Shown here piece after piece: positions 23,215 to 41,566 of a stretch of 64,000 bases of DNA. The stretch is from Polyangium spumosum (GTDB lineage Bacteria > Myxococcota_A > Polyangia > Polyangiales > Polyangiaceae), in contig NZ_WJIE01000005.1 in NCBI RefSeq assembly GCF_009649845.1, forward strand, positions 496,001 through 560,000, in the 5' to 3' direction. A model generated the notes under the pieces. That model ran no database searches. It saw nothing but the letters and a program-made list of their open reading frames with translations, and had not been told where the DNA came from. The translations under genes and the position numbers were made by a program. Within the stretch, counting starts at the first letter, position 1, and the number at the start of each line of letters is the position of its first letter.

Positions 23215-25302
23215 TCACCGCAGCGCCAGCATCCGCACCGTCCGCGGCTTCATGCGCACCTCGATCGTGCCGGCGCGCGCTTCGAAGGTCGAATCGTCGA
23301 TCAGGTCCGTCGCCTTCGTCCGCGCCGCGCCGGCGCTCACGCGGGCCACGAAGTCCCGCTCGGACGGGTTGATCACGAAGAGCACGCGTGGCGCGCCCGA
23401 GGCGTCCTCGTGCACGGTGACGTACACGCCGCCGGGATCGCAGGCGTACGTGGGCAGGCCGAGCGTCTCGATCGCCTGCGCGACGGCCGCGTCGGCCGCG
23501 GCGGGCACGTCGGGCGTGAGCGGACCGTCGTCGCCGAGGCGGCCGAGGTCGAAGGGGACGTCCACGGGACGGAACGCGCCGTCGAAGCGAGGCTCGCGCG
23601 GGCCGAGGGTGACGCGGGCGCCACGCGCCTTGGCCTCGGCGAGGCGCTCGAAGAGCTCGGGCTTGAGGGCGCCGGAGGTCGCGCAGATGAGCCAGCGCGC
23701 GTCGCCGAGCGCGGTGTCGCGGTCCTCGCCGCCGACGACGGCGAAGGGCACGCCGCGCGACTCGAGGGCCTGCTCGAAGGCGGTGGCGAAGGTGTCGGCC
23801 TCGATGGCGAGCGGATACCCGAGGCCGAGGTCGTCCTCGACGCAACGCTCCCGCGCGCCGGCCCCGACGATGGAGAAAAACGCGCCCGAGAGCGGGCCGA
23901 AGGCGTGCATGACCCGCGCGAGCCTGCGCTCGGTGCGGGGGATGAGGATCCGGACGGGGGTCTTCCGGCGCAGATCGTGGAAGCTCGTCTGCTCGAGGGC
24001 GGCGCAGAGCTTGCGCCAGAAGGTGGCGTACGGGCGCTCGCGGCCGTGGCGGTCGATGGGGGCGCCGATCCAGCGGTCGCGCTCGACGGCCATGTAGACG
24101 TTGAAGCCACGCAGGCCGTAGGCGAGGGCGCAGAGGACGGTGAAGGCGCCGTCGCGCTCGTCGAGGGGCGGGAAGAAGGGCGGGAAGCCGGCGCCCATCT
24201 CGCAGGCGAACGCGGGCACGGAGAGGGCCTCGCAGCGCGTCGCGAGCTCGCTCGTGCGGCGGGCGATGATGGCGCGGCTCGTGGGGTTCGCCAGGTGGTA
24301 GTAGTCGAGCCCGACGAGGTCGACGACCTTGGTGACGCGGGCGGCGTTGAGGGGCGTCGCGTCCTGGCCCGGCGGCAGGTTGTGCGTCGTGGGCAGCCCG
24401 TCCATGCCGGCGGCGGCGAGCGCGCGGCCGAGGCGCTGGAACGCGGTGGCGAGCAGGTGCTCGTGGAACTCGGACCAGTCGAGGTGTCGGGCGAGGTCAC
24501 GCGGGCGCGTGGCGTCGAGCTTGCGCGGCGGGTCGATGGAGGAGAAACGTGTCGCCTCGCCCTTGCGGCTCGACGGGACCTCGCCGTCCTTGGGCTCGAC
24601 GCCGTAGGAGGCGCGCAGGGCCTCGATGGTGCCGTACTTTTCGCGCAGGAACTCGCGGTAGAGGCGGATCGCGTCGGGGTGGTAGTCCTGGTCGTAGGCG
24701 CCGTCGCGGAAGTAGAGGGCGCCTTCGTTGTCGATCTGGAAGAGGACGATGGGCCCGTCCGGGTAGAGCAGCGGCGCGAGCGTGGGGCCGAGGGCCTGGA
24801 AGTACCGCGCGGCCTCGTCGTGGAAGGCGTCGCTCGCGTAACTCGGGACGGGGAACGCGAACGGGAGCATGGGGAGCAAGACCGGGTTCTGGTCGGGGGA
24901 GCGGGCCTGGCAGGCCGGGTCCCAGACGATACGCTCGGGCAGGCCGAAGTAGGTGAGCTCGGCGTTGATGTGGGGCCCGGGGCGGGCGATGACGTGGAGG
25001 CCGAGCTCCTCGGCGATGCGGCAGAAGCGGGTGATGTCGCGCTGGGGGTCGGTGGCGCCGAGCTCGAGCTTGCCGGGGGCGACCTCGTGGACGCCCCAGG
25101 GGATGTAGGTGTCGACGAGGCGCAGGCCCATGGCCTTGACGGCCTCGAGGCAAGCGCGCCAGGCGCCGGGGTCGAGGCGCCAGTAGTGGACGGAGCCTGC
25201 CCAGAGCGGGACGACGTCGCCGTTGATCTCGATCCCGCCTGGGACGAGACGCACCTTTCGCCCCTGCCCTTCGGCCCTCGGCCTGTCTTCACGTGCGGTC
25301 AT
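23215..25302 (-). CDS. Glycoside hydrolase family 35 beta-galactosidase
   Basis: A 695-residue enzyme that starts like GH35 beta-galactosidases: PLWAGSVHYWRLDPGAW, then DTYIPWGVHEVAPG and RPGPHINAE. The acid/base Glu is in LFQIDNEGALYF, and the nucleophile is likely the Glu in VPAFACEMGAGF. No signal peptide is visible, so it is probably cytoplasmic, acting on imported galactosides. The first about 10 residues are polar and may not belong; an alternative start cannot be ruled out. It is divergent from the small ABM-like gene, with only 38 bp between the starts, so promoters must overlap. Galactoside specificity is inferred from the family. Confidence 0.87.
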   Translation of the reverse strand: MTAREDRPRAEGQGRKVRLVPGGIEINGDVVPLWAGSVHYWRLDPGAWRACLEAVKAMGLRLVDTYIPWGVHEVAPGKLELGATDPQRDITRFCRIAEELGLHVIARPGPHINAELTYFGLPERIVWDPACQARSPDQNPVLLPMLPFAFPVPSYASDAFHDEAARYFQALGPTLAPLLYPDGPIVLFQIDNEGALYFRDGAYDQDYHPDAIRLYREFLREKYGTIEALRASYGVEPKDGEVPSSRKGEATRFSSIDPPRKLDATRPRDLARHLDWSEFHEHLLATAFQRLGRALAAAGMDGLPTTHNLPPGQDATPLNAARVTKVVDLVGLDYYHLANPTSRAIIARRTSELATRCEALSVPAFACEMGAGFPPFFPPLDERDGAFTVLCALAYGLRGFNVYMAVERDRWIGAPIDRHGRERPYATFWRKLCAALEQTSFHDLRRKTPVRILIPRTERRLARVMHAFGPLSGAFFSIVGAGARERCVEDDLGLGYPLAIEADTFATAFEQALESRGVPFAVVGGEDRDTALGDARWLICATSGALKPELFERLAEAKARGARVTLGPREPRFDGAFRPVDVPFDLGRLGDDGPLTPDVPAAADAAVAQAIETLGLPTYACDPGGVYVTVHEDASGAPRVLFVINPSERDFVARVSAGAARTKATDLIDDSTFEARAGTIEVRMKPRTVRMLALR

Positions 25303-29301: not shown

Positions 29302-32300
29302 GTGATAGGGTCGCGCGCCGTGTTGCCCTACCTCGAACCGCATGGGCTCTTCGCCCCGACGTACTTCGCGCGTGTGGTCGCCGACCCGAGAGGCACGTGC
29401 CCACGCACGCAGCCGGTCGACATCGACACCCGCCTCGCGGCCCTCGTCGAGATCTGGGGCCGTTACCGACCCTCGTTGACCATGCCCGCGCCGTCGCAGA
29501 AGGGCCTGTTCACGGACACCGCCGAGACGAAACACGTCGGGCTCCCCCGGGATCTCCGGCCCCTGCCCAAGTCGCAGGAGGCCGTGGCAGAAGGGTTCGT
29601 GCAGCTCGTGCTGGAGAAGGTCTGCGGATACCACGCCGACCCCAAGCCGCCGCTCCTCGACCCTGCGACCCAGGAAAAACACATCCCCGACTTCGTGTGC
29701 TTCGCCAGCCAGGAGGCGGCCGTGCGGCTGCGCTCCGGGCGCAAGATGCCCGAGGCGCGTGTCTACTGCGCAGATGCGTTGCTCGTCGTGGACGCGAAGC
29801 GCTTCGGGAAAGGCGTGGGCGCCGACGAGGCCGGCGATGAGCAGAGCCGCGCCAAAGGACCCAAGGCCGCACGGAAGGAGCCGACCGCGAGCGAGGACGT
29901 CGAGCAGGTCCTCCGCTACCTGCGGGTGACGGGCAAGCGCTGGGGCGTGCTCACGAACGGGCGCTCGTGGCGGCTCATGGAAGCGGGGAAGTTCGAGGCG
30001 CACCTGCGCTTCGACCTCGTGCTCTTCGCGGAGGACCTGCTCGCCCGCGGCGGCGTGTTCACCGACGAAGACCGCGCCGCGCTCACGCTGTTCCTGCACC
30101 TCTTCGGCCCCCCGGCGACGAGCGGATACCTCGACATGCTCGCGCGCGAGAGCGAGGTCGAGACCCGTCGCGTCCGCGAGATCCTCCGGGAGCGCGCACA
30201 CGAGGCCGTGTCGATCGTCGCCAATGGTTTCCTGCTCCACCCGGGCAATGGCTTCGTCGCGCGGGAGGGCAGCGCGCTTTCGGCCCCGACGCAGGAGAAG
30301 CTCGACGAGCTGCGCGAGCTATCGCTCGTGTTCCTCTACAGGCTCCTGTTCGTGCTCAAGGCCGAGGCGATGAACCTGCTCCCCATGCGAGACCGCAACG
30401 GAGCGAAGACCTCTTACGCGAAGCACGCGTCCACGGAGGCGATCTTTCACGCCGTCGCGAGGCTCAGCGCGCACGAGCGGACGGAGTCGAGCGCGGCATA
30501 CAAGATGCTCCGCGATCTGTTCCAGCTCATCGACAAGGGCGGCGAGTACGACGTCCTCGCCTACAACGGCGGGCTCTTCTCGGCGGGCGACCACCCGGAC
30601 CTCGAAGAGCTCCGCTTGCGTGACGACGTGGTCCACGCGCTGCTCGTCTCGCTGATCTACCTCGACGCCGATACGAGCGGCGTGCGCGCGGGTGAGCCGC
30701 TCGTCGCCGTCCCGTATGCGGACCTCGACGTGCGGGATCTCGGCGACGTGTACGAGGGGCTCCTCGAACTGCGCCTCGTGCGCGACCCGCAGGTGCCACT
30801 CGATGGGGTGGGCGTGCGCCCGTTCGTGCTGCGCAACCAGGATGGCGAGAAGAAGGCATCGGGCAGTTACTTCACGCCCGACGTGATCGTCGAGCATCTG
30901 GTGCGGCGCGCCTTGCAGCCGCTGCTCGACGCATGTGGGACCGATGCGGAGGCCGTCCTGTCGTTGAAGGTCGTCGACCCCGCGATGGGCAGCGGGCATT
31001 TCCTGGTGAAGGCGATCGACGTGATCGCGTGGCACCTGACTCTGCGCTGCGATCCGCTGGAGCAAGGCGTCGCCAACGACAACGGGCCGCGGGAGCTCGC
31101 GTACTGGAAGCGGCGCGTGGTGGAGCGGTGCATCTACGGGGTGGACGTGAACCCGATGGCCGTGGAGCTCGCGAAGGTCGCGCTGTGGTTGCACACGGCG
31201 AGCGCGGGCAAGCCGCTGTCGTTCCTCGACCATCACCTGAAATGCGGCAACGCGCTGGTGGGCGCGCGCCTCGGTCGGCTCAACGTGCCGGCGCGGGTGG
31301 CGCGACGGACGAAGAAGGGCGACGTCTGGGAGCCACGGCCCACGGGCGAGGCGCAAGGCAAAGGCAAGGCGAAGGGCAAGGGTGAGGGGCCCGCGGAGCA
31401 GGCGCCCGCGCAGCGCCCGCTCGCGCTTTCGCTCGACGAAGGCTGGATGAAGGACATCGTGGCGCGCGTGGCGCAGGTGGCCGCGCAGCCGGCGAATACG
31501 GTCGCCGAGGTGCACGACAAGATCCGGCGACATCAGGACGTGGACGCGCGCCTGCGCTGCCATCGATTGCTCGCGGACCTGTGGTGCGCGCAGTGGTTTT
31601 TGGCCGCGCCGGACGTGGAGGGCGTGCACGTGTACCAGAGAGGCGAGGGCCTGTACGAAGAGCTCCGCGAGGCGTGCGTGCGGAGCGGGTCGGACGGCGA
31701 CGAGCTCCGGCGGATGACGATCGAGAAGGTCGCCGACGTGCCGCTCGTCAAGGAGATCGCCCGCGTGCGCGAGGAAGGGTATGGGCCGCGTCTGCTGCGC
31801 TTCTTTCACTGGGAGCTCGAGTTCCCGGAGATCGCGTTCGACGCGACGGGGGCGCGGCGACCGCGGGTCGGCTTCGACGCCGTGGTCGGCAACCCGCCGT
31901 GGAACAAGCTGAAGCCGGCGAAGCGCGACTTCTACGGCCCCTTCTCGGACGAGGTGGCGAACACGCAAGGGCCGTCGCTCGATCGGCTGATCGACCGGTT
32001 GCAGGGGGAGCGGCCGGAGCTCGCGTCGGGGTGGGACACGTATACGAATCGAATCGAGACGCTCGTCGAGTACCTCGCGGAGGGCGGGGACTACGAACAT
32101 CAGTCGGTCGAGGTGAACGGGAAGAAGACCGGGGGTGATCCGGATCTGTTCCGGTATTTCATCGAGCGGGCGCACCAGCTCGCGCGCGTCGACGGTCGTA
32201 TCGGGCAGGTGGTGCCGTCGACGTTGTGGCAGGCGGAGGGGTGCACGGGGCTGCGGCGGCTCTTGCTGGAGACGTGCACCATGGGATGCCTGTACGGCTT

Positions 32301-33966
32301 CGAGAACGCGAGGCGATGGGCGTTTTCCATTCACTCGCAGTTCAAGTTCTCGACTTTCGTCGTGGCGCGTCGCCCTGCATCCGAGGGGCACAAGTTCCCG
32401 GCGGCGTTCATGCTACGCGACGCCCGCGTGCTCGAGGGGGGCTTGCAAGAGCGGGTGGTCGAGATGTCGCGTGCGTTCGTGGACGCGGTCAGCCCGGGGA
32501 CGCTGGCGCTGCTGGACGTCAAGAATGAGCTCGAGGCCAAGCTCATCGAGCGGCTTCACGAGGAGCACCCGGCGCTCGGGAGCGAGAAGAGCGGGTGGGG
32601 CGTGAAGTACCGCAATGAACTGCACATGACGAACGACGCGTGGATGTTCCGCAACCGCGCGTGGATGAAGGCGCGGGGATTCACGCAGGTGATGCCGGTC
32701 CGTGACACGCAAGGTCAATGGACGCAGCGCTTCGAGGGACCGGGTGAGGTGGCCGAGCTGCCCGAGGCACTTCCGGCAGGCGGCGAGTACTGGGTCGCGG
32801 CGAGCGAGCGATATTATCGAAATCGAGGGTATGCCGAGCGGAGCGGCGAGATGAACGGCCAAACGGTGGCGTGGTTCATCCACCCGAGTGACGTGGGAAA
32901 GGACGAGGACAAGTCGCGTATCTTCGCGGGGGAACGGTACACGGCGCTTTACGACGGTCGACTCATTCACTCATTCGATCACTGCTATCAACGATACGTA
33001 TCGGGCGAGGGCCCCAAACAGATCTGGGCACGCCTGGATCTGGGCGTGAAGAAGTACGAGCCAAGGGTATTCACATGCCGGGTGGAATCGGCAGCGCCGT
33101 TACAGGCACGATGTGGGTTTCGCGATATCGCTCGCGGAACTGATGAGCGTACGATGATCGCCGCGATCGTACCGGGCGACGTAACCTGCGGGAACAAGGT
33201 CCCCGTGCTGCGCTCGACCCACGATGACGTCGTCAATGTACTGCCCGGGATCCTCGGCTCGCTGACGGCCGATTTCATCATCCGCTTACGCGTCGGCGCG
33301 ACGCTCAACTGGATTTACGTGGCACGACTCATCGTACCGCGTCGGGAAGAGATCGACAGTACATCGCTCGAACGCCTGCGAGTCCTCGTCGCCCGCCTCT
33401 CCTGCACGACGCCCGAGATGGCCGACGTCTGGACGCACGTCTTCCCGGACGAGCCTTGGTCCTACGATTCAGCAGAACGTGACCCCTGGAAGCGCGCCGA
33501 GCTGCGCGCGGAGATCGACGCCATCGTCGCGGACCTGTACGGCCTTTCCGTCCCTGAATACGCGTACGTGCTGACGACGTTCCCCTTGCTCGATCGAGAC
33601 CAGCCGCCGCTGCCCGGCGATGGCTTCGTCACGGAGGGGAAGGAGGCGTCCCGCGGTTCCGACGACGAGCGGGGCGTGACCTGGGACGAGACGGAGGACG
33701 GTATCGTCGAGATCACGCCGCGCAGCTTCATCACGCGTGATCTCGCGCTGCTCCGGTACATGCAACGCAAGGGATATCCGATCCCCGCGGACCTGGACGC
33801 ATTCTATCGAGACGTCGTGGGCCTGGACCCGCGAGGGCCCCTCTCGCGCTTCCGCGTCGGAGCGCTGCGAGACCTCGAAGCGCGCGTGATCGAGGCAAAG
33901 AAACGAGGCGCAGTCGCGTACGTGCCGAGCGGGCGGGGCGGGGGGCAGGACGAGGAGACGAGCTGA
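29302..33966 (+). CDS. Large nuclease-N6-adenine methyltransferase, Type IIG-like (Eco57I-type)
   Basis: A 1554-residue single-chain protein. The N-terminal part has a PD-(D/E)XK nuclease look: IPDFV near residue 128, then LLVVDAKRFG near 162 and RWGVLTNGRSWRL. The gamma-class adenine methyltransferase follows, with VDPAMGSGHFLV (motif I, near 559) and VVGNPPWNK (motif IV, near 864). Between them lies a Lys/Gly-rich linker (KGKAKGKGEG). The last 600 residues probably include target recognition. Enzymes of this plan cleave and methylate with one polypeptide and act in phage defence. The start GTG at 29302 and a GTG at 29320 are both possible. No BREX or DISARM partner genes flank it. Confidence 0.85.
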   Translation: MIGSRAVLPYLEPHGLFAPTYFARVVADPRGTCPRTQPVDIDTRLAALVEIWGRYRPSLTMPAPSQKGLFTDTAETKHVGLPRDLRPLPKSQEAVAEGFVQLVLEKVCGYHADPKPPLLDPATQEKHIPDFVCFASQEAAVRLRSGRKMPEARVYCADALLVVDAKRFGKGVGADEAGDEQSRAKGPKAARKEPTASEDVEQVLRYLRVTGKRWGVLTNGRSWRLMEAGKFEAHLRFDLVLFAEDLLARGGVFTDEDRAALTLFLHLFGPPATSGYLDMLARESEVETRRVREILRERAHEAVSIVANGFLLHPGNGFVAREGSALSAPTQEKLDELRELSLVFLYRLLFVLKAEAMNLLPMRDRNGAKTSYAKHASTEAIFHAVARLSAHERTESSAAYKMLRDLFQLIDKGGEYDVLAYNGGLFSAGDHPDLEELRLRDDVVHALLVSLIYLDADTSGVRAGEPLVAVPYADLDVRDLGDVYEGLLELRLVRDPQVPLDGVGVRPFVLRNQDGEKKASGSYFTPDVIVEHLVRRALQPLLDACGTDAEAVLSLKVVDPAMGSGHFLVKAIDVIAWHLTLRCDPLEQGVANDNGPRELAYWKRRVVERCIYGVDVNPMAVELAKVALWLHTASAGKPLSFLDHHLKCGNALVGARLGRLNVPARVARRTKKGDVWEPRPTGEAQGKGKAKGKGEGPAEQAPAQRPLALSLDEGWMKDIVARVAQVAAQPANTVAEVHDKIRRHQDVDARLRCHRLLADLWCAQWFLAAPDVEGVHVYQRGEGLYEELREACVRSGSDGDELRRMTIEKVADVPLVKEIARVREEGYGPRLLRFFHWELEFPEIAFDATGARRPRVGFDAVVGNPPWNKLKPAKRDFYGPFSDEVANTQGPSLDRLIDRLQGERPELASGWDTYTNRIETLVEYLAEGGDYEHQSVEVNGKKTGGDPDLFRYFIERAHQLARVDGRIGQVVPSTLWQAEGCTGLRRLLLETCTMGCLYGFENARRWAFSIHSQFKFSTFVVARRPASEGHKFPAAFMLRDARVLEGGLQERVVEMSRAFVDAVSPGTLALLDVKNELEAKLIERLHEEHPALGSEKSGWGVKYRNELHMTNDAWMFRNRAWMKARGFTQVMPVRDTQGQWTQRFEGPGEVAELPEALPAGGEYWVAASERYYRNRGYAERSGEMNGQTVAWFIHPSDVGKDEDKSRIFAGERYTALYDGRLIHSFDHCYQRYVSGEGPKQIWARLDLGVKKYEPRVFTCRVESAAPLQARCGFRDIARGTDERTMIAAIVPGDVTCGNKVPVLRSTHDDVVNVLPGILGSLTADFIIRLRVGATLNWIYVARLIVPRREEIDSTSLERLRVLVARLSCTTPEMADVWTHVFPDEPWSYDSAERDPWKRAELRAEIDAIVADLYGLSVPEYAYVLTTFPLLDRDQPPLPGDGFVTEGKEASRGSDDERGVTWDETEDGIVEITPRSFITRDLALLRYMQRKGYPIPADLDAFYRDVVGLDPRGPLSRFRVGALRDLEARVIEAKKRGAVAYVPSGRGGGQDEETS

Positions 33967-33981: not shown

Positions 33982-34788
33982 TCACCACCCCGGCCCCTGC
34001 CCTCCAACCACGATATGCAACCCCGCGTCATGGTGCGGCACCTCGGCCCTGTCCAGGTGGAGCGCCCGCACCTGTGACGAGGCCCCCAGCACGACATGCG
34101 GCACGACGCCAATCGTGACCGCCCCGATCTTCTCCGTGCCCGCCCCGATCGCCACGCCGAGGGCCGCCGAGAGCCGCGTCTCGTTCGAGAATGCGCCGAG
34201 CAAGAGGCCACATTGCGGCAGCGGGCCCTCCAGCGGGCAATCGTCGTCGCCGGGCAAATCGAGGTACGCCGTGTGGTACGCCGCGCCATGGCTCACGTAG
34301 AGGTTGAAGAGCGGCGCCACGCGGCCCAGGCGCTTGCTGAGGTCGAGGCCCGCGCGACCCCAGGGGCCGTGGCCGACGCCCGTGTAATACCCGCCCGCCC
34401 CCAGCACGAGCGAGACAGGGTCGCCATTGTCCTCGTCGAGCACAGCGAACCGCGCCTCGCCGCCAAAACGCTGGAAGCCGAGGGAGGCCCCGATTTCGAG
34501 CCAGCGCTTCAGGCCATACCGAAAACCGACCTCGTAGGCGCCGAGGCCGCTGCTCAAGAACCACGGGAAGGTCGAGTCCTCGGGGTAGATGTCCGCGCCA
34601 CCCGTGGTCACGGGGGTCTCTGCGCCGGAGGGGCGCTCGAAATGGCCCCAGCCGAAGTTCCAGGCGACCGCGTGCACGCTCCAGCCGAATTTGCCGGCCG
34701 GTGTGGTGTCGCCGGTGCGAGGGGTGATGGCAGGGCTGCAGGCGAGGAGGGCGAGGGGGAGGAGGGCGAGGGGGTGGAGGCGCGGCAT
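33982..34788 (-). CDS. Lipoprotein of unknown function, beta-rich, coupled to the NuoL/M-like fusion gene
   Basis: A 268-residue exported lipoprotein with a signal peptide and lipobox (LLPLALLAC). The body is rich in Gly, aromatic and alternating hydrophobic residues (LGAYEVGFRYGLKRWLEIGASLGFQRFGG, in part), as in small outer-membrane barrel or surface proteins, although no family is recognised. The ATG at 34786-34788 is separated by one base from the TGA of the upstream NuoL/M-like gene (TGAAATG), so translation is coupled. The frame continues upstream but that region is the other gene in a different frame. Confidence 0.68.
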   Translation of the reverse strand: MPRLHPLALLPLALLACSPAITPRTGDTTPAGKFGWSVHAVAWNFGWGHFERPSGAETPVTTGGADIYPEDSTFPWFLSSGLGAYEVGFRYGLKRWLEIGASLGFQRFGGEARFAVLDEDNGDPVSLVLGAGGYYTGVGHGPWGRAGLDLSKRLGRVAPLFNLYVSHGAAYHTAYLDLPGDDDCPLEGPLPQCGLLLGAFSNETRLSAALGVAIGAGTEKIGAVTIGVVPHVVLGASSQVRALHLDRAEVPHHDAGLHIVVGGQGPGW

Positions 34789-34789
34789 T

Positions 34790-37700
34790 TCAGGTGCTCG
34801 TCCGGTCCTCGGGAGCGTGCACCGGGATCGCCGCAATCTGCAACGGCCCCGGTCGATCCACCAACCTGTGCATCTCGCGGCTTGCCGTATCCACCATCCC
34901 GAGCAGCGGCCTCGGCCAGATCCCGAGCACCACCACGACAATCACGAGCGGCAAGGCCGCCGCAATCTCCCGACCGTGCATCGCGGGGAACTTGCCCCCG
35001 AACGGCTCGAGGTATTTGCTCGTCCGCCACTCCTCGCGCGCCTCGCCAAACAGGAGATGCGCCATCGCGAAGAGGTGCACGCCCGCGAGCACCACGAACC
35101 CCGCCGCGCCGAGGACGCCGATCCACCGCTCGCGCGCGAACGCGCCCCAGAGCGCGAGCAAGGGACCCCAGAAACCCGCGAGAAGCGGCATTCCGAGCGA
35201 GGCGAGCATAGCCAGGCCAAAGAGCAACGCGAAGAGCGGCATTTCGCGCGAGAGGCCGCCGAACCGGCCGAGGTCACGCGAGGACACGCGTGATTCGAGC
35301 GCCGACACGAGCACGAACAAGAGGCCCACGATCACGCCGTGTAGCGCCGCCACGGCCACGCTCGCCTCGAATCCTTGCGGGGTGAGCGAGCCCATTCCCA
35401 GGAAAACAAAGCCCACGTGGGCCCCCGCGATACGGGCGAGGAATCGCTTGAGGTCACTCTCGGCCATCGCCGCGAACGCGGAGACGAAGATGGCGACCAC
35501 GCCGAGGATCGAGACCGTCATCGCCGCCCAGCGCATGCCGTCCGGCAAGACGCCGACGCCGAGCCGCAAGAGGCCATAAACGCCCGTCACGAAGAGCGCG
35601 CCCGAGAGCAAGACGCTCGTCGGGGTGTCCGATTCGGAGTGCAGGTCCGCGAGGTATCCCGGGAGCGGGAAGGCGGACAGGCGGAGGGCGAAGGCGAGGA
35701 AGAGGGCGGTCCAGACGACCTTCACGGCGGAATGGCCAAAGAGGAGGAGGCCCTTGTCGACCCAGGCCACACGCGCGAGCTCGGGAATGGCCGCCGAGCG
35801 GCGGACAGCCTCGCCCGTCGAGAGATAGGTGGGGTCACCATTTTGCCAGAGCCAATAGGAGGCCGCGCAGAGGAGCGCGGCGCCGATCAGGGAGGAGACG
35901 AGCACACGAGCCGCCGCGCGGCGAGGGCCAGGGCCGCCGCGGCGCGCGACGAGAAAACAGGCCGGAAGGAGGCCGAGCAGCCAGAAGGCGCAAAAGAGGA
36001 AGAGGTCGAGCGAGACGAGGACACCCAGGGAGGCCGTGAGGAAGAGGCCGGCGAGGGCGTGGTAGGTCGAAGCGCGCTCGCGCAAGGTCGCGCTCGTTAT
36101 CGAGGCGACGAAAGCGACGAGGACAGCAGAGGCGACGAGGACGAGGGATACGCCGTCGACGCCGATGGACCATTCGACGCCGAGGGAGGGGAAGAGGCGG
36201 CTCCGCTCGATGAGTTGGAAGCCGTCATTGCCGTCGGCGCGGGTGAAGAGGCGGTCGAATCGATAACAGAGCCAGCCGACGAAGAGGAGGAGCGCGCCGT
36301 GGACGGCGGCGCTCGTGGCGGCGAGGGTACGCGAATGGTCGCGGCGCGCGAGGCGGAGGAGGAGCGCGAGAAGGGTGCCGAGCAGAGGGAAAAAGACGAC
36401 GACGAAGAGCGGGGCGCGGCCGAGGAGGCCACGGCCGAGGAGGCCAAGGCCAAGCGGGCGCTCGGCGCGAAGGGGCATCACGAGGGGGCGCGCGGGTTCG
36501 TCACCGGCGCGGGTGCTCGATTCGACGAGGACCTGGCCGTAGAGCTCGCGGGCGCGGGCAGCCTCGTAGCGCCATTTGACGACCACGCGGCGCTCCTGGC
36601 CCGCAGGGATACGCGTGACGAGGGGCACGCGCGCGCCTTCGACGGTGACGGTGAGGCCAGGCGGGAGGCGAGGATCGGCCGGCGAGGTGCGTAACTCGAC
36701 GCGCGAGACCTCGAGCAGGCCAGGGCCCTCGTTCCGAAGGAGAAACGCGCCGGTCATCTGCTCGCCGTCTGGAGAGAGGGTGAGCTCGACGTGGTCGCCG
36801 CCGAATTCGGGGCGAAGGACGGCGCGGCCCGAAGGCGCGTCGTCCGCAAAGGCCGGCGAGGCAAAGCCGAGGAGCACGAGGGCGACGAAGAGGGAGAAGA
36901 GGCGCGAAAGGAGGCGCGCCGGGAGGCCAAGGACGAGGTCGTCGATCGCAGAGACGAGCTTCGAGGCGAATCGCGCGATCGTGGTGGCCCCTTCGAGGGT
37001 GGCCTCGCCAAGCCGAGGTCCGAGGCCTTCGAGCAGACGCGCGCCAGGGAAGGTGCGCGCCTCACGAGGGCGCTCGTCGGGGCGCTCGGAGGTCGTTCGA
37101 AGGCAAACGAGCGGGAGAAGGAGCGCCTGCAAGGAGAGGAGGACGACGGCGAAGGTCGGCGCTTCGAGGCCAACGGACACAAACGAGAGGCCCACGGAGG
37201 TGAGCGCGAGGAAGACGAGGCGGTGGAGGCGTCGGCGCTCGATCAGCACACGGAGGCCCGCGAGGAGGGCCGCGAGCACGCCGAGGGTGGTGACGATCGT
37301 GGAGGCCGTGGAGCTGAACGAGAGGAGGTCGGAGAAACGAACGAGGAGGAGAGGGCCCGGCGCGAGGGAGAGGCCAAGCACGAGCGCGAGCGCAGGCCGC
37401 GAGAGGAGCGAGGCGGCGCGAGGGAGCCAGCCAGAGAAGGGGAAGGTCGCGCTCGTGGCGAGAGCGCCGACGAAGAGGAGGAGGCAGGCGAGCGTGACGA
37501 GGCCGATCGAGCCAGCGCCGTGCTTGCGGAGGAGCGAATGGGCGAGGAGGTGCCGGCCCGTCTCGTCACGCATCACGAGCTGGTCGTGGATCTCCCGAAA
37601 CGCGACCGTGGAGCCGACGGGCGCGATTCGCACCTCCTCACCTTCGAGGACGACGAGGCGCTCGATCCAGGTGACCTCGAGGCCATCCCCCGTGACCATG

Positions 37701-38656
37701 GCGCCGCCGCCCGGCGCGACGACGACCGCATGCGAGCCCGCAGGGATCGGGCGGCGCACGAAGGGCGCGATCGCGAAGGGCGCAGGGTTCTGCGCGAGCT
37801 GGGCGCGATCGGAGACGCCGAGGTAGACCCGCGCGCCCGCGTGGCTCGTGAAGGTGAGGAAGCCACGCTGCTCGGCGCGCTCGGCGATGATCTTGGCGTC
37901 ACGCTCGCCACGCGGGCGGTCGACGTCCTCGGCGACGGTCTCTTCGTGAGGGATGCGGCCCTCGGCATGGACGGGGACGAACCGCGCGCGGTAGTCGGAG
38001 AGGAACTGGCCCTCGTCGAGCCAAGCGCCGCCGAGGCCCCAGAAGAGGAGCACGAAGCCCCCCGCGAAGGCGACGCCGCCAAAACTCGCGACCACGCCCG
38101 CGCGCACGCCCGCCGAAGCAGCCGCCTGCGTGCTCTTGCCCTGCACGAGGAAGAGGCCCGTCGCGAGCACGACGGCGCCCCAGCCAAAGAGCCAACCGAT
38201 CGCATCGGCCGCGAGCACGACGAGCGAGACGCCAGACGCGAGGAGAGAAGCACACGCGGTGAAACGAATCGACGCGCGGTCGTCCTCGACGAACCTCGGC
38301 GCGAGGAGGTGCACGCCGAGGACGGCGAGCAACGCAGCGAGGAGGAAGGCCGTCGCGAGCGGATCGAGGACGAAGGAGGCGCTCGCGTCGAGAGTGCCGA
38401 TCCGCAAGAGGCGGAAGGCCACGTCGAAGAGGGCGCGGCGCGCAGGCTCGAGCGAGGCGAGGCGCGCCGCACCCGCGAGCACGACGGCGAGCGAGAGCAA
38501 GGTCGCGCCGAGGCCGAGGTGCGTCACGCGACGTCGCCCGATCCGCACGCCAAAGAGAGCGACGACGATCGCGACGAGCAGAGGCACGAGCGGCACGAGG
38601 CCAAGCGGCACGAGGGGCGCCTCGACGGGCGCGAGCGGACCAGCATACGCGGGCAT
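34790..38656 (-). CDS. NuoL/NuoM-like fusion protein with a periplasmic domain between the halves
   Basis: A 1288-residue polytopic membrane protein built from two antiporter-like halves of the complex I/Mrp type. The N-terminal half (to about 590) resembles NuoL (FPFSGWLPRAA matching the HTWLPDA/QTWLADA element) with a soluble loop at about 220-385. A signal-peptide-like helix (SLFVALVLLGFASPAFA) and a roughly 140-residue exported beta-rich domain follow. The C-terminal half (about 745-1288) resembles NuoM (FALRLSAFPLPGYLADLHSESDTPTS, LKRFLARIAGAHVGFVFLG). The lysines that carry protons in NuoL and NuoM appear replaced. The ATG at 38654-38656 was chosen over a TTG 22 codons upstream. No other complex I gene is near. 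Confidence 0.75.
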   Translation of the reverse strand: MPAYAGPLAPVEAPLVPLGLVPLVPLLVAIVVALFGVRIGRRRVTHLGLGATLLSLAVVLAGAARLASLEPARRALFDVAFRLLRIGTLDASASFVLDPLATAFLLAALLAVLGVHLLAPRFVEDDRASIRFTACASLLASGVSLVVLAADAIGWLFGWGAVVLATGLFLVQGKSTQAAASAGVRAGVVASFGGVAFAGGFVLLFWGLGGAWLDEGQFLSDYRARFVPVHAEGRIPHEETVAEDVDRPRGERDAKIIAERAEQRGFLTFTSHAGARVYLGVSDRAQLAQNPAPFAIAPFVRRPIPAGSHAVVVAPGGGAMVTGDGLEVTWIERLVVLEGEEVRIAPVGSTVAFREIHDQLVMRDETGRHLLAHSLLRKHGAGSIGLVTLACLLLFVGALATSATFPFSGWLPRAASLLSRPALALVLGLSLAPGPLLLVRFSDLLSFSSTASTIVTTLGVLAALLAGLRVLIERRRLHRLVFLALTSVGLSFVSVGLEAPTFAVVLLSLQALLLPLVCLRTTSERPDERPREARTFPGARLLEGLGPRLGEATLEGATTIARFASKLVSAIDDLVLGLPARLLSRLFSLFVALVLLGFASPAFADDAPSGRAVLRPEFGGDHVELTLSPDGEQMTGAFLLRNEGPGLLEVSRVELRTSPADPRLPPGLTVTVEGARVPLVTRIPAGQERRVVVKWRYEAARARELYGQVLVESSTRAGDEPARPLVMPLRAERPLGLGLLGRGLLGRAPLFVVVFFPLLGTLLALLLRLARRDHSRTLAATSAAVHGALLLFVGWLCYRFDRLFTRADGNDGFQLIERSRLFPSLGVEWSIGVDGVSLVLVASAVLVAFVASITSATLRERASTYHALAGLFLTASLGVLVSLDLFLFCAFWLLGLLPACFLVARRGGPGPRRAAARVLVSSLIGAALLCAASYWLWQNGDPTYLSTGEAVRRSAAIPELARVAWVDKGLLLFGHSAVKVVWTALFLAFALRLSAFPLPGYLADLHSESDTPTSVLLSGALFVTGVYGLLRLGVGVLPDGMRWAAMTVSILGVVAIFVSAFAAMAESDLKRFLARIAGAHVGFVFLGMGSLTPQGFEASVAVAALHGVIVGLLFVLVSALESRVSSRDLGRFGGLSREMPLFALLFGLAMLASLGMPLLAGFWGPLLALWGAFARERWIGVLGAAGFVVLAGVHLFAMAHLLFGEAREEWRTSKYLEPFGGKFPAMHGREIAAALPLVIVVVVLGIWPRPLLGMVDTASREMHRLVDRPGPLQIAAIPVHAPEDRTST

Positions 38657-38803: not shown

Positions 38804-39676
38804 ATGCCTGGGAAGCCCGACGTCGCACTTCTGGTCGAGGACACGGCCGGCGAGCTGCAAAGGCTCCACGAGGAGAACCGGCGCCTGCGCGAGGCCGAGC
38901 GTCGCCTCTCGATGCTGGTGGAGCTGACGAACGACTGGATCTGGGAGGTCGACGCGAAGGCGGTCTACACCTTCGTGAGCCCACGCATCCGCGATTTCCT
39001 GGGCTACGAGCCAGAAGAAGCGCTGGGAAAGACGCCCTTCGACTTCATGCCGCCGGAGGAAGCCACGCGCGTCGCGGCCGCCTTCGTGCCGATCGTGGAG
39101 GCACGCGCGCCGTTCAGGGACCTCGAGAACGTGAACGTGCACAAGGACGGTCGGCGGGTGGTGCTGGAGACGAGCGGGGTGCCCCTGTTCGACGAAGAGG
39201 GCAGGTTCTCGGGGTTCCGCGGGGTGGACCGAGACATCACGAAGCGAAAGCAAGCCGAGGCGGAGCGAGCGCGGATGCAGGAGGAGATCATCCACGCGCA
39301 GGAGAGGATGCTCGCGGAGCTGGAGTCGCCGCTGTTGCCGGTCGCGGAGGGCGTGCTCGTGATGCCGCTCATCGGCTCGGTGGACAAGCGGCGCGCCGGG
39401 CGCATCGTGGACGCGCTGCTCGCGGGTGTGTCGGCGCGCGCCGCGACGTTCGCGATCATCGACCTGACAGGCCTGCGCGCCGCAGACCACGCAGTGGTGG
39501 AGCTGCTCTGCGAAGCGGCGCGCGGGGCGCGGCTGCTCGGCGCAGAGGTGCTGCTGACAGGGGTGCGGCCCGAGGTGGCCCGCACGATGGTGGAGCTCGA
39601 CGTGAACGGGGTGCGCACGCAGAGCACGCTGGCGCAGGGGATCAGGTTCGCGCTGGGGGCGCGGAGGCGAGGGTGA
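38804..39676 (+). CDS. PAS-STAS protein, RsbR-like
   Basis: A 290-residue cytoplasmic protein: a short coiled coil (LQRLHEENRRLREAERRL), a PAS domain (about 40-150; LTNDWIWEVDAKAVYTFVS, GYEPEEALGKTPFDFM), a second short coil, and a STAS domain (about 180-285; AIIDLTGLRAADHAVVELL, GARLLGAEVLLTGVRPEVART). The layout matches RsbR-type stressosome proteins with a PAS sensor instead of the globin or V4R types. Its 3' end overlaps the convergent TOPRIM gene by 35 bp. No RsbS/RsbT/RsbU genes are visible. It is divergent from the NuoL/M-like fusion, with 147 bp between the two starts. Confidence 0.87.
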   Translation: MPGKPDVALLVEDTAGELQRLHEENRRLREAERRLSMLVELTNDWIWEVDAKAVYTFVSPRIRDFLGYEPEEALGKTPFDFMPPEEATRVAAAFVPIVEARAPFRDLENVNVHKDGRRVVLETSGVPLFDEEGRFSGFRGVDRDITKRKQAEAERARMQEEIIHAQERMLAELESPLLPVAEGVLVMPLIGSVDKRRAGRIVDALLAGVSARAATFAIIDLTGLRAADHAVVELLCEAARGARLLGAEVLLTGVRPEVARTMVELDVNGVRTQSTLAQGIRFALGARRRG

Positions 39677-40478
39677 GGGACGACGCCCCCGGGATGCCGA
39701 GGAGCTCGTAGAGAAACACGCGCACGGCCTTGATGCGCGGGAGCTCGCACGACGCGCCTTCGAGCCAGCGGTTGTCCTGGATGGAGACCTGGACGGCTTT
39801 GCCAGGACGAAGGACGCCTGCGATGCACGCGACGGTCGCCTTGTTGCGCCCGGCCGGCTTCGTGAAGTCTGCCATGTCGTCGCGGTTGAAGGCTGCATCC
39901 TTCGGATTCACGCCTGCCACGAGAGCGTGGGCTGCGACGAGGAGCGAGGGGTAGCTGGTCGCCGCACCCTCGAGGAGCAGGTCCTCGAGGGTGCCTGGTT
40001 GATGGTTGTCAGGCAGCACGAACACACCGGTTCGTGGGGGGCCGGGCGTGATCTCGCCGGGCTCGTCGGGGAGCGCGACGGGGGCATCCTTCGAGGCCGC
40101 GAGCTTCGCCTTCAGCTCCGCGAAGCGATCGCGGGGCGTAGCCTTCTGGTCGGCGTCGAGGACGACACCGATGGACGCAGGAGATGGGCGCAGCTCGGTG
40201 AGCGACTCTTCGATGGTCTGCGCGATACGCGACTCGCCGGTGGCCGCGTGGATGGCGAGCGAGACCTCGGTGTTCTGGAAGAAGAAGGGAACCGAAACGC
40301 GCCGGAGCAGATCGAGATCGGGCGGCGGCGGGAAGCTCGTGGGGATGAGCCGCCTCCAGTAGGGATCAACTTCCGGTTGCTTCTGGACGCGCTTCAGGCC
40401 GAGAGGCTTGAGGAGCCGCGCGACGAGCTCGACGTCGTGCGGGCCCTCGACGACGATGTACGCGTACCGGACGCTCAT
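39642..40478 (-). CDS. TOPRIM domain protein (DUF3226-like), partner of the adjacent ATPase
   Basis: A 278-residue protein with a TOPRIM fold read from motifs: VVEGPHD (Glu11, residues 9-15), VVLDADQK (Asp108 and Asp110) and a later Gly-rich stretch. TOPRIM proteins of the DUF3226/OLD type are metal-dependent nucleases. The start ATG overlaps the ATPase stop as ATGA, so both proteins are made together. The C-terminal half includes a Lys/Arg-rich stretch (KPAGRNKATVAC), possibly DNA contacts (inference). The last 35 bp overlap the convergent PAS-STAS gene. Phage-defence activity is plausible for the pair but untested. Confidence 0.77.
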   Translation of the reverse strand: MSVRYAYIVVEGPHDVELVARLLKPLGLKRVQKQPEVDPYWRRLIPTSFPPPPDLDLLRRVSVPFFFQNTEVSLAIHAATGESRIAQTIEESLTELRPSPASIGVVLDADQKATPRDRFAELKAKLAASKDAPVALPDEPGEITPGPPRTGVFVLPDNHQPGTLEDLLLEGAATSYPSLLVAAHALVAGVNPKDAAFNRDDMADFTKPAGRNKATVACIAGVLRPGKAVQVSIQDNRWLEGASCELPRIKAVRVFLYELLGIPGASSLTLASAPPART

Positions 40479-41566
40479 CGCACGTCGAGCCCTCGCTCGT
40501 AGCGGATGCGCTTGAGCAGGTCCTCGCCGTAACGGCGGGCCGTCGTCTGATCGCCGTCACGTTCCAATCGGTAGGCGACGATGTCTTCTTCGGGCGTCGG
40601 GTCGACCGCGAGGATCGCGTCGAGCGCTTCGAGGCTGTGGGTCGTGGCGAAGACCTGCACGTCGTGCTCGGCGCAGGCGTCGAGGAGCCAGCGGAAGACG
40701 TGCTGGAGCACGGAGACGTGGATGGCGGTCTCGAGCTCGTCGATGAGCAGGATGCCGCCCGCGATGCTCGGTATCGTCAGAGCGAAATGCAGAGCGCGAC
40801 GAACGCCATCGCCGTAGGAGCTGAGGGGCAAGAGGCCAGCGCGCTCGTCGCGCAGGTAAACCATCGCATAGGGTTCACTCGCCCACGGGGGTACGAGGAG
40901 CTCCGCGCCGACAATCGCAGGCTCGATCTTCCGCAGCAGATCGATCGTCGCATCCCAGTGTCCACCGAGCTTCGCCTCCGAGATGTCACGGACACCGCTC
41001 GGCTGGATCGAAGCGTTGATGGCGCGAACCGGCACCTGGGGCTCGACCGGCTGCGGTGAAAATTCCCAAGCCTCCCTTTCCCAGAACGTGAACGACCCTC
41101 GCGCCTCGTCTGCGGAGAACAGGTCGAGCTGGCGGGTCTTGGCGACGACATCGATGCGCGCACCACGGCGCTCGACGGCAGGTCCAGGAACGGCCGCGCG
41201 AACGTCCTGGTATTGCGCTACGACCTCACGCACGGGCGCGCGACCCACACCAGCGACGCGGAGAGTGCCCTCGTAGGGCTTCGTGAACACGACATCGCTG
41301 GTATGGGGAAACAGCCAGCGAAGCAGCTCGCCGGCCGGCAAACCAGCAAAGACATCCCGCCATGCCGCAATCGCAATCCACTTCCGCGGATCCAGCGGCG
41401 CGCAGAAGACGGACAGCGCCTCCAGCACACTCGTCTTCCCCGAGTTGTTCCGGCCGACGAGCAGGTTGAACCGGCCGAGGTCCCGCAACTCCAGGTCACG
41501 GATCCCCCGGAACCGCTCCACCGTGAAGCTCTCGAGAGGCAGTCTCATGGGCACGACCGGGGACAT
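40475..41566 (-). CDS. AAA/ABC-type ATPase, OLD/RecF-like
   Basis: A 363-residue ATPase with Walker A LVGRNNSGKTSV (about 36-47), ABC-like signature LSSYGDGVRR, Walker B GILLIDELETAIH (about residue 274) and switch His in ATTHSLEAL. This is the domain arrangement of OLD-family and RecF-type ATPases (AAA_21). The TOPRIM nuclease that OLD proteins carry at the C-terminus is here a separate gene overlapping by 4 bp. Two in-frame ATGs compete (41566 and 41548), with no clear ribosome site for either. The ECF sigma gene stops 81 bp upstream. Confidence 0.83.
   Translation of the reverse strand: MSPVVPMRLPLESFTVERFRGIRDLELRDLGRFNLLVGRNNSGKTSVLEALSVFCAPLDPRKWIAIAAWRDVFAGLPAGELLRWLFPHTSDVVFTKPYEGTLRVAGVGRAPVREVVAQYQDVRAAVPGPAVERRGARIDVVAKTRQLDLFSADEARGSFTFWEREAWEFSPQPVEPQVPVRAINASIQPSGVRDISEAKLGGHWDATIDLLRKIEPAIVGAELLVPPWASEPYAMVYLRDERAGLLPLSSYGDGVRRALHFALTIPSIAGGILLIDELETAIHVSVLQHVFRWLLDACAEHDVQVFATTHSLEALDAILAVDPTPEEDIVAYRLERDGDQTTARRYGEDLLKRIRYERGLDVR

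Follow-up and report, generated by a model that had tools for sequence, protein, structure and literature searches.

The charged residues that pump protons in the antiporter-like subunits of complex I form a motif set out in PMC9802314. Passages of PMC3046159 report that in Escherichia coli function is lost when K234 of NuoM, K229 of NuoL or K217 of NuoN is mutated, and that replacing E144 with Ala or Gln in NuoM or NuoL causes total loss. A 2025 survey of complex I gives two complete sets in 45 species and incomplete sets in 2,171, and the term Myxococc is absent from its main text (PMC12361115). Here we analyze a gene of the soil bacterium Polyangium spumosum in which a truncated NuoL is joined to a NuoM, located in a 64,000-nucleotide stretch of contig NZ_WJIE01000005.1 (positions 496,001 to 560,000; the whole stretch is called the window). 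By sequence and gene order the fusion is orthologous to the L and M genes of a second complex I found in related genera, and it is predicted not to pump.

The fusion resembles NuoM (ND4) in the sequence and fold of its M half and NuoL (ND5) in the fold of its L half; unlike them, it has lost the charged axis, lacks TM12-TM15 of the L subunit (TM, transmembrane helix), is fused, and carries two added domains. Among the part of the matches listed for open-access PMC, no title or abstract opening deals with a PDZ-NuoH, with complex I remnants in Polyangium or Sorangium, or with such a fusion.

Architecture of the fusion

The gene and its parts, in window coordinates and with amino acid (aa) positions of the protein, are as follows.

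34790 to 38656, minus strand: NuoL/NuoM fusion gene of 1288 aa, running from the ATG at 38656 to the stop codon at 34790-34792
38033 to 38656, minus strand: NuoL half, TM1-TM6 (aa 1-208), E144 lost; AlphaFold2 (AF2) helices at 20-39, 41-68, 99-122, 126-148, 152-172 and 177-208
37511 to 38023, minus strand: inserted domain between TM6 and TM7 (aa 212-382), tentatively PEGA-like; strands and short helices in the AF2 model
37097 to 37501, minus strand: NuoL half, TM7-TM11 (aa 386-520), K229 replaced by Thr, TM12-TM15 absent (alignment, AF2, Foldseek)
36845 to 36922, minus strand: signal-peptide-like helix (aa ~579-599), then A-F-A (aa 602-604) before D-D or D-E; motif in 6/6 Polyangium fusions
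36422 to 36844, minus strand: exported Ig-like domain of the NuoM half (aa 605-745), a beta sandwich modeled by AF2 with fair confidence
34871 to 36415, minus strand: NuoM-fold half (aa 748-1262) without E144, K234, K265 and E407 (alignments, AF2 model, Foldseek)

The start codon is backed by six aligned Polyangium genes, all of which open with MPAYAGPL at this point, with diverging sequences upstream. Proton_antipo_M is matched in two stretches of the fusion (Pfam, 5.4e-44), and TIGR01972 assigns the C-terminal half to NuoM with 308.4 bits against a cut-off of 263.8 (NCBIfam). A protein search over 183 genomes of the order recovers the full-length fusion in all six Polyangium genomes, the window's copy being 75-77 % identical to the other five. 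An earlier note on this stretch had described a NuoL/NuoM-like fusion, and the Pfam, NCBIfam and phmmer results agree with that description.

Loss of the charged axis in both halves

The NuoM half aligns with the NuoM chains of E. coli (7p61_M, 1.6e-38) and Paracoccus denitrificans (8qby_M, 5.7e-41) in phmmer. Its AF2 model (aa 560-1288, from an alignment of 38) has a predicted local distance difference test score (pLDDT) of 86.1 and a predicted TM-score (pTM) of 0.88, and Foldseek matches it to 8qby_M with a TM-score of 0.92 of the target and a root-mean-square deviation of 2.2. Sequence and fold of a 14-TM antiporter-like subunit are thus present, and the charged axis E144/K234/K265/E407 is absent, being replaced by L, R, V and P. 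In the phmmer alignments FALRLS lies on FAVKMP (K234 to R), GALFVTGVYG on GILLKTAAYG (K265 to V), FWLLGLL on FWEMMLV (E144 to L) and FWGPLL on FVGEFM (E407 to P), and the multiple alignment concurs at all four sites. Arginine occupies the K234 position in all six Polyangium M halves. The replacement of both NuoM lysines, first read by eye, therefore holds, to which the unlisted losses of E144 and E407 are added; the register is fixed by the phmmer alignments to the two NuoM chains. In the M core, 38 of 47 invariant Gly and Pro positions are kept, but 19 of 31 invariant charged positions and 57 of 123 invariant hydrophobic ones; such better retention of Gly and Pro would be expected were the fold more important than the pump.

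The L half (AF2 model of aa 1-600, alignment of 30, pLDDT 80.2) matches E. coli NuoL (7p62_L) in Foldseek at 3.0e-13. The alignment gives K229 to T, E144 to G, D178 to G and H254 to V, so that the threonine previously noted at K229 is confirmed and E144 is gone as well. Whereas NuoL is defined by 16 TMs and a lateral helix, with E144, K229 and K399, the L half consists of TM1-11 followed by a poorly modeled stretch with two helices (pLDDT mostly <50). Between TM6 and TM7 lies an insert of ~170 aa (aa ~210-380), absent from the earlier note; Pfam matches PEGA to it in one of 30 L members (7.7e-5) and finds none in the window's own insert up to an E-value of 1. The exported domain, which the note had put at about 140 residues between the halves, is located at aa ~605-745 and modeled as a beta sandwich; Pfam finds no match in the window's copy, and weak Ig-type matches in at most 8 of 38 family members.

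Antiporter-like subunits have a periplasmic N-terminus, as in the topology of NuoL. By analogy, the L insert and the exported M domain would both lie on the periplasmic side, to which the chain would be brought back by the single helix near aa 579-599.

Descent from a second complex I

In other genera the place of the fusion is taken by adjacent, separate genes for L (~860-1000 aa), M (~700-830 aa) and N (~510 aa); those of locus L050 score above the NCBIfam cut-offs as NuoL, NuoM and NuoN (626.7, 562.5 and 380.2 bits). Five loci of genus g47 share the order w46711, w45750, w44721, EngB-like GTPase, L-M-N, GH35. In Polyangium the upstream genes and their order are unchanged, apart from a few extra genes between them, and are followed by the fusion with no N; GH35 lies further along in the window (23215-25302) and in L045. 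The fusion is thus a direct orthologue of this second complex I by sequence and gene order, with the same added domains.

The second complex I, apparently of the 11-subunit type without NuoEFG, comprises A, B, CD, H, I, J, K, L, M and N among the subunits found in related genera. In the g47 genome G165 the genes other than L-M-N are scattered: A, B and CD map to 10.80 Mb, I, J and K to 9.42 Mb and H to 8.74 Mb. A stand-alone membrane arm without its own quinone module was considered for the intact form and is ruled out for G165 by A, B, CD and I-J-K. NuoE, F and G of the second set were absent from the stretches examined, no genome-wide search for them having been made. Another genome, G157, has one A, one B and one D despite H, J, K, L, M and N, which may reflect assembly gaps. 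In another order of the class, L141, which begins inside the operon, holds CD-H-I-J-K-L-M-N in one operon; its H has a lipoprotein-like start (by eye) and aligns across the PDZ region, the L protein is long, the alignment of M extends across the exported region, and all 11 pump residues checked are present. In L140, a B-CD-H-I-J-K-L-M-N operon from elsewhere in the phylum, the H frame measures 435 aa, L 712 aa and M 566 aa, so that the additions are lacking; the same 11 pump residues are present. The periplasmic additions, which comprise a lipoprotein-PDZ NuoH, the NuoL insert and the exported Ig-like domain on NuoM, were therefore acquired by a working complex I, and the window gene is the remainder after most of that complex was lost.

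The intact form retains the pump residues, and g47 also has A, B, CD, I, J, K and N, whereas only H and L-M are left in the window's genome (G000). Its ordinary complex I genes lie outside the window, at C1:768-775 kb and C5:778-784 kb (L120 and L069, split over two contigs). Single copies of A, D and J were found by Pfam, with no second copy; there are two K matches, one of them in an Mrp-like cluster, and two NuoB-family genes, the second at C5:70 kb, and G149 (2 contigs) gives the same result on all these points. No K, B or N resembling the second set was found by Pfam (NuoC and NuoI were not searched genome-wide), and the lost N is best matched by the ordinary NuoN and an Mrp-like open reading frame (ORF). 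Synteny and identity show descent from a second complex I; for the families searched, its quinone module and A, J, K and N were not found in this genome. In a separate region, L070 (G000:C2:690-709 kb), a 1018-aa protein is surrounded by four antiporter-like ORFs.

No other complex I gene of families A, B, D, H, J, K and L/M/N lies near the fusion. The earlier note's statement to this effect stands for this genome, but not for relatives, where the orthologues sit in an L-M-N set. The note had also held that a complex I cluster containing the gene in related genomes would speak against its reading; the L-M-N orthologues and the contiguous CD-H-I-J-K-L-M-N operon of L141, which is of the same type, do so in part.

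Pump residues in intact and reduced loci

Loci in which N itself is intact are here called intact (19 loci, 11 genera), and are compared with 33 reduced M sequences from 15 genera, the six Polyangium genes included; no genus is in both lists. L105, cut by a contig end, is excluded from the M counts and trees. Some reduced loci end near the cluster, so that N may lie past the contig, and part of the antiporter matches are unsorted.

The M axis E-K-K-E is kept in 19 of 19 intact rows. None of the 33 reduced rows keeps all four residues or K234, and 28 keep none; the others retain E144 and E407 (L060), K265 and E407 (L092), or E407 only (L088, L093, L094). The K234 position is Leu, Phe, Ala, Thr, Tyr, Pro or Val in reduced lineages other than Polyangium. 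In L, all ten charged sites are kept in the 19 intact rows, while 15 reduced rows lose most of them, retaining E144, D178 and K229 (L061), D178 and K229 (L083), E144, R175 and H334 (L093), or R175 and D178 (L064, L086, L087, L092, L094); columns past TM11 are unreliable in truncated rows. N carries E-K-K-K in all 18 sequences aligned from intact loci, the N of L058 being cut by a contig end. An N match stands beside M in 20 loci, 19 of which keep E-K-K-E in M; the exception, L093, is the only reduced locus with an N, a remnant with two of the four residues.

The non-pumping character proposed in the earlier note is supported by these losses, of the charged axis in M and of E144 and K229 in L, and we infer that the fusion does not pump. 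The note had further asked whether orthologues in Polyangiales share the fusion and the substitutions: both occur in 6/6 Polyangium, whereas related genera have an intact L-M-N. When the exported domain is searched alone (aa 598-745), 61 of the 317 genomes in the class give a match, with intact and reduced forms pooled; 57 of these belong to the window's family and three to a second family of the order, with one weak match outside.

F-type ATP synthase genes, named by eye, lie convergent to the M gene, within ~4 kb, in L063, L074, L080, L084, L085, L092 and L094.

A retained lipoprotein-PDZ NuoH as the probable partner

The H gene of the second set is found at C17:53.6-55.6 kb in the window's genome, where it encodes a lipoprotein-PDZ-NuoH 49 % identical to that of G165. 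Second-set NuoH proteins begin with a lipoprotein signal, whose Gly-Cys does not vary among the 15 aligned, and also contain an IPT-like stretch (by eye) and a PDZ domain (Pfam PDZ_2, 4.5e-8 in the window's genome and 2.8e-6 and 7.8e-8 in two intact forms). The Polyangium protein matches NuoH (PF00146) with 145.5 bits and differs from it in these N-terminal additions and in the loss of several conserved loop charges. Among 27 charged sites compared, it has lost D63, K66, K70, E71, D72, D213, E220 and E228 and keeps R38, E157, R209, E216 and E218, whereas six intact-type H proteins keep nearly all 27. E157 of NuoH is given as the counterpart of NuoM E144 in a passage of PMC8357420. Among the matches listed from a search of 377 genomes of the phylum, most align over the NuoH part only, and 19 start before query residue 30, including the lipoprotein region.

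A single cluster holds both H and M in 14 other reduced loci. Seven of them have an L match between the two genes (L062, L064, L074, L079, L086, L087, L092), and in the other seven L is fused to M or an unmatched frame takes its place (L060, L067, L073, L080, L082, L084, L088); H and M are also clustered in L093 and in L046/L094 (one region). This clustering in reduced loci indicates that H, L and M form a linked unit.

The H gene of the window's genome adjoins an ABC ATPase, a zinc-ribbon protein and a trypsin-like protein. Comparable neighborhoods, with a zinc-ribbon protein (~550-660 aa) and a trypsin-like protein (Trypsin_2, 2.2e-13 in L108), usually with the ABC ATPase too, occur in L108, L109, L110, L113, L114, L115, L117 and L118, in intact and reduced genomes alike.

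Shift of constraint toward the periplasmic domains

We compared identity per pair between the membrane core and the periplasmic domains, leaving out pairs at least 75 % identical; the pairs are not independent. Between intact forms the core is much the better conserved, at 0.759 against 0.448 in M (117 pairs), 0.710 (TM1-6) against 0.447 in L (159 pairs) and 0.833 against 0.463 in H (10 pairs). Between Polyangium (two representatives) and intact forms, core identity in M, L and H is 0.432, 0.353 and 0.445, and periplasmic identity is 0.444, 0.480 and 0.513. Across all reduced forms against intact ones the core values are 0.358, 0.316 and 0.319. Given these core and periplasmic identities, the extra constraint of the pump is gone, and Polyangium has kept the periplasmic constraint, as other lineages mostly have.

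Comparison of the Polyangium fusions with one another shows purifying selection, with a median ratio of nonsynonymous to synonymous substitution rates (dN/dS) of 0.30 (15 pairs); by part, the value is 0.28 for the M domain, 0.30 for the L insert and 0.44-0.47 for the L core.

Number of reductions

A midpoint-rooted tree of up to four neighboring genes from 20 loci, in which many data are missing, intersperses intact with reduced genomes: Polyangium falls together with L052/L053/L057 (ultrafast bootstrap, UFBoot, 100), L061 with g47 (75), and L066 lies outside. This tree implies at least three reductions, if the intact form is ancestral and there was no transfer. The M tree speaks against this, as all reduced genes form a single clade there, with L061 beside Polyangium (UFBoot 97). 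Added alone to the intact set, L061 falls inside g47 (90 and 75), and the placement of Polyangium alone has low support (34 and 56); added together, the two group at 100, with low support for their position among the intact set (29-57). The reduction possibly happened several times.

The fusion joint and the neighboring genes

The signal-peptide-like helix mentioned in the earlier note can be placed at aa ~579-599, though at low model confidence (pLDDT mostly <60). An A-x-A motif ahead of the cleavage point is the kind of site used by signal peptidase I, and the A-F-A motif is a possible site of this kind inside the fusion. Cleavage there would yield separate L and M chains that each keep the former topology. 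The cytochrome b/c1 of Bradyrhizobium is a fusion polyprotein split by signal peptidase; the Polyangium protein is likewise a polytopic protein fused through an internal signal peptide, but its cleavage is only predicted from the motif. The fusion in L060 has an alanine-rich A-N-A-N-A-Q at the joint. L-M fusions apparently occur outside Polyangium too, in L060, L067 and possibly L088, which suggests that fusion arose repeatedly.

Two genes flank the fusion.

33982 to 34788, minus strand: putative lipoprotein gene encoding 268 aa with an LLAC lipobox (by eye); its ATG follows the fusion stop by one base
38804 to 39676, plus strand: divergent PAS/STAS-like regulator gene (named by eye), adjoining the fusion in 6/6 Polyangium loci

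The coupling to a lipoprotein gene proposed earlier is not conserved. The lipoprotein frame begins ~2.26 kb past the fusion in five other Polyangium loci, with an HsdM-like gene between the two in the one locus checked (L068), and has no match in the other loci compared. Owing to this distance we do not count it as a partner, and it is probably outside the system.

The window also contains, at 39642-41566, a DUF3226 protein and an AAA_21/AAA_15 ATPase (Pfam), possibly a defense pair; it recurs at the same place in one other Polyangium (L045/L100), was not found in the other four loci, and is a probable insertion. At 29302-33966 an Eco57I-type restriction-modification methylase (1554 aa) is convergent with the lipoprotein gene. 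Together with the HsdM-like gene of L068, this hints that the site downstream of the fusion may attract restriction genes. In a plasmid search, the matches listed (5 of 156 records) are all below 60 % identity and none spans 80 % of the M half; four are annotated as NuoM or NuoM/N and one has no annotation.

Discussion

We take the fusion to be a relic of a second complex I, derived from its L and M subunits. Together, H and L-M would still make up a small platform of the inner membrane, non-redox and non-pumping, which would hold the IPT-like and PDZ domains of H, the L insert and the Ig-like domain of M in the periplasm. These domains would serve a task in the envelope, for example binding or organizing another periplasmic or lipid-anchored protein. 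We place this reading, a second-complex-I remnant presenting periplasmic domains, slightly on the probable side, and the retained function probably lies in the periplasm. A bolder version, to which we give just short of an even chance, is that Polyangiales reduced a complex I, perhaps more than once, to a pump-dead H-L-M envelope scaffold whose function is wholly periplasmic, with the Polyangium L-M polyprotein split by signal peptidase. The earlier note had suggested a surface or assembly role; a surface or envelope role would now also fit the shift in constraint, with H as the conserved partner, encoded elsewhere in the genome.

Several observations weigh against the platform. H and L-M are unlinked in Polyangium, so that their association is drawn from other lineages. 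K234R retains a positive charge, and a half-channel could survive in Polyangium H, given E157, R209, E216 and E218. The M core has a dN/dS of 0.24, below the 0.28 of the exported domain; being under purifying selection, it would do more than float domains. Across all reduced rows periplasmic identity falls somewhat, to 0.364, 0.388 and 0.390 in M, L and H. For one species pair the dN/dS of the fusion is 0.36, slightly above that of all six neighbors (0.13-0.33); in the same pair H gives 0.33 and the ordinary NuoL, NuoM and NuoN 0.25, 0.26 and 0.09. The M tree, finally, puts all reduced genes in one long-branched clade (UFBoot 94).

Some of these points would suit an ion-conducting or energy-transducing module with a rewired path, in which the Arg at K234 and the NuoH charges let the proton motive force drive periplasmic work. 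The constancy of that Arg in 6/6 Polyangium, the E157 and R209 of H and the 19 of 31 charged positions kept in the M core speak for it. However, M is without E144 and the TM12 charge, the L charges checked in TM5, TM7 and TM8 are gone and TM12 itself is absent, and in other reduced lineages the K234 position is held by any of seven uncharged residues; we regard such a module as quite unlikely. An assembly or regulatory factor, tuning assembly or supercomplex formation through binding of the L-M fusion and H to the ordinary complex I or the ATP synthase, is unlikely too, though less strongly so. The complex I-type fold is kept, so that binding surfaces could be shared, and ATP synthase genes (by eye) lie within ~4 kb of M in seven reduced loci from five genera. 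Yet these genes are convergent in 7/7 loci, where adjacency may be positional, the searches of the window, which covered the nuo families named above but no atp genes, found no ordinary nuo gene, and the retained constraint sits in the periplasmic domains.

The losses of N, J and the quinone module, the truncated L, the fusion itself and the dN/dS of 0.44-0.47 in the L core could also mark a decaying pseudogene of a duplicated complex I. This we consider very improbable, against an open frame of ~1280 aa in six species at a median dN/dS of 0.30, a well-folded M model and reduced orthologues with open frames in 14 further genera. That the gene is a relative of Mrp-type cation/proton antiporters has next to no probability: NuoL/M and MrpA/D share a fold and Mrp chains are among the matches, but NuoM is far closer (8qby_M at 5.7e-41, against 4.5e-12 for MrpD 7qru_D), and the synteny is with a complex I L-M-N set. 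Membership in the Mrp family was rejected, as the similarity to MrpA/D does not exceed that to Nuo subunits.

The remnant platform, as we read it, carries a warning for annotation. NCBIfam still scores the fusion as NuoM above its cut-off, and counts based on subunit profiles can therefore include dead remnants. The absence of overlap between the 11 genera with intact and the 15 with reduced orthologues makes the question testable. Complex I subunits are usually viewed as energy converters; here H, L and M outlast the quinone module, J, N and the pumping residues. With periplasmic additions that stay conserved, this would be a case in nature of structure being parted from function within the membrane arm; if this reading is true, a respiratory machine would have been turned into an envelope scaffold.

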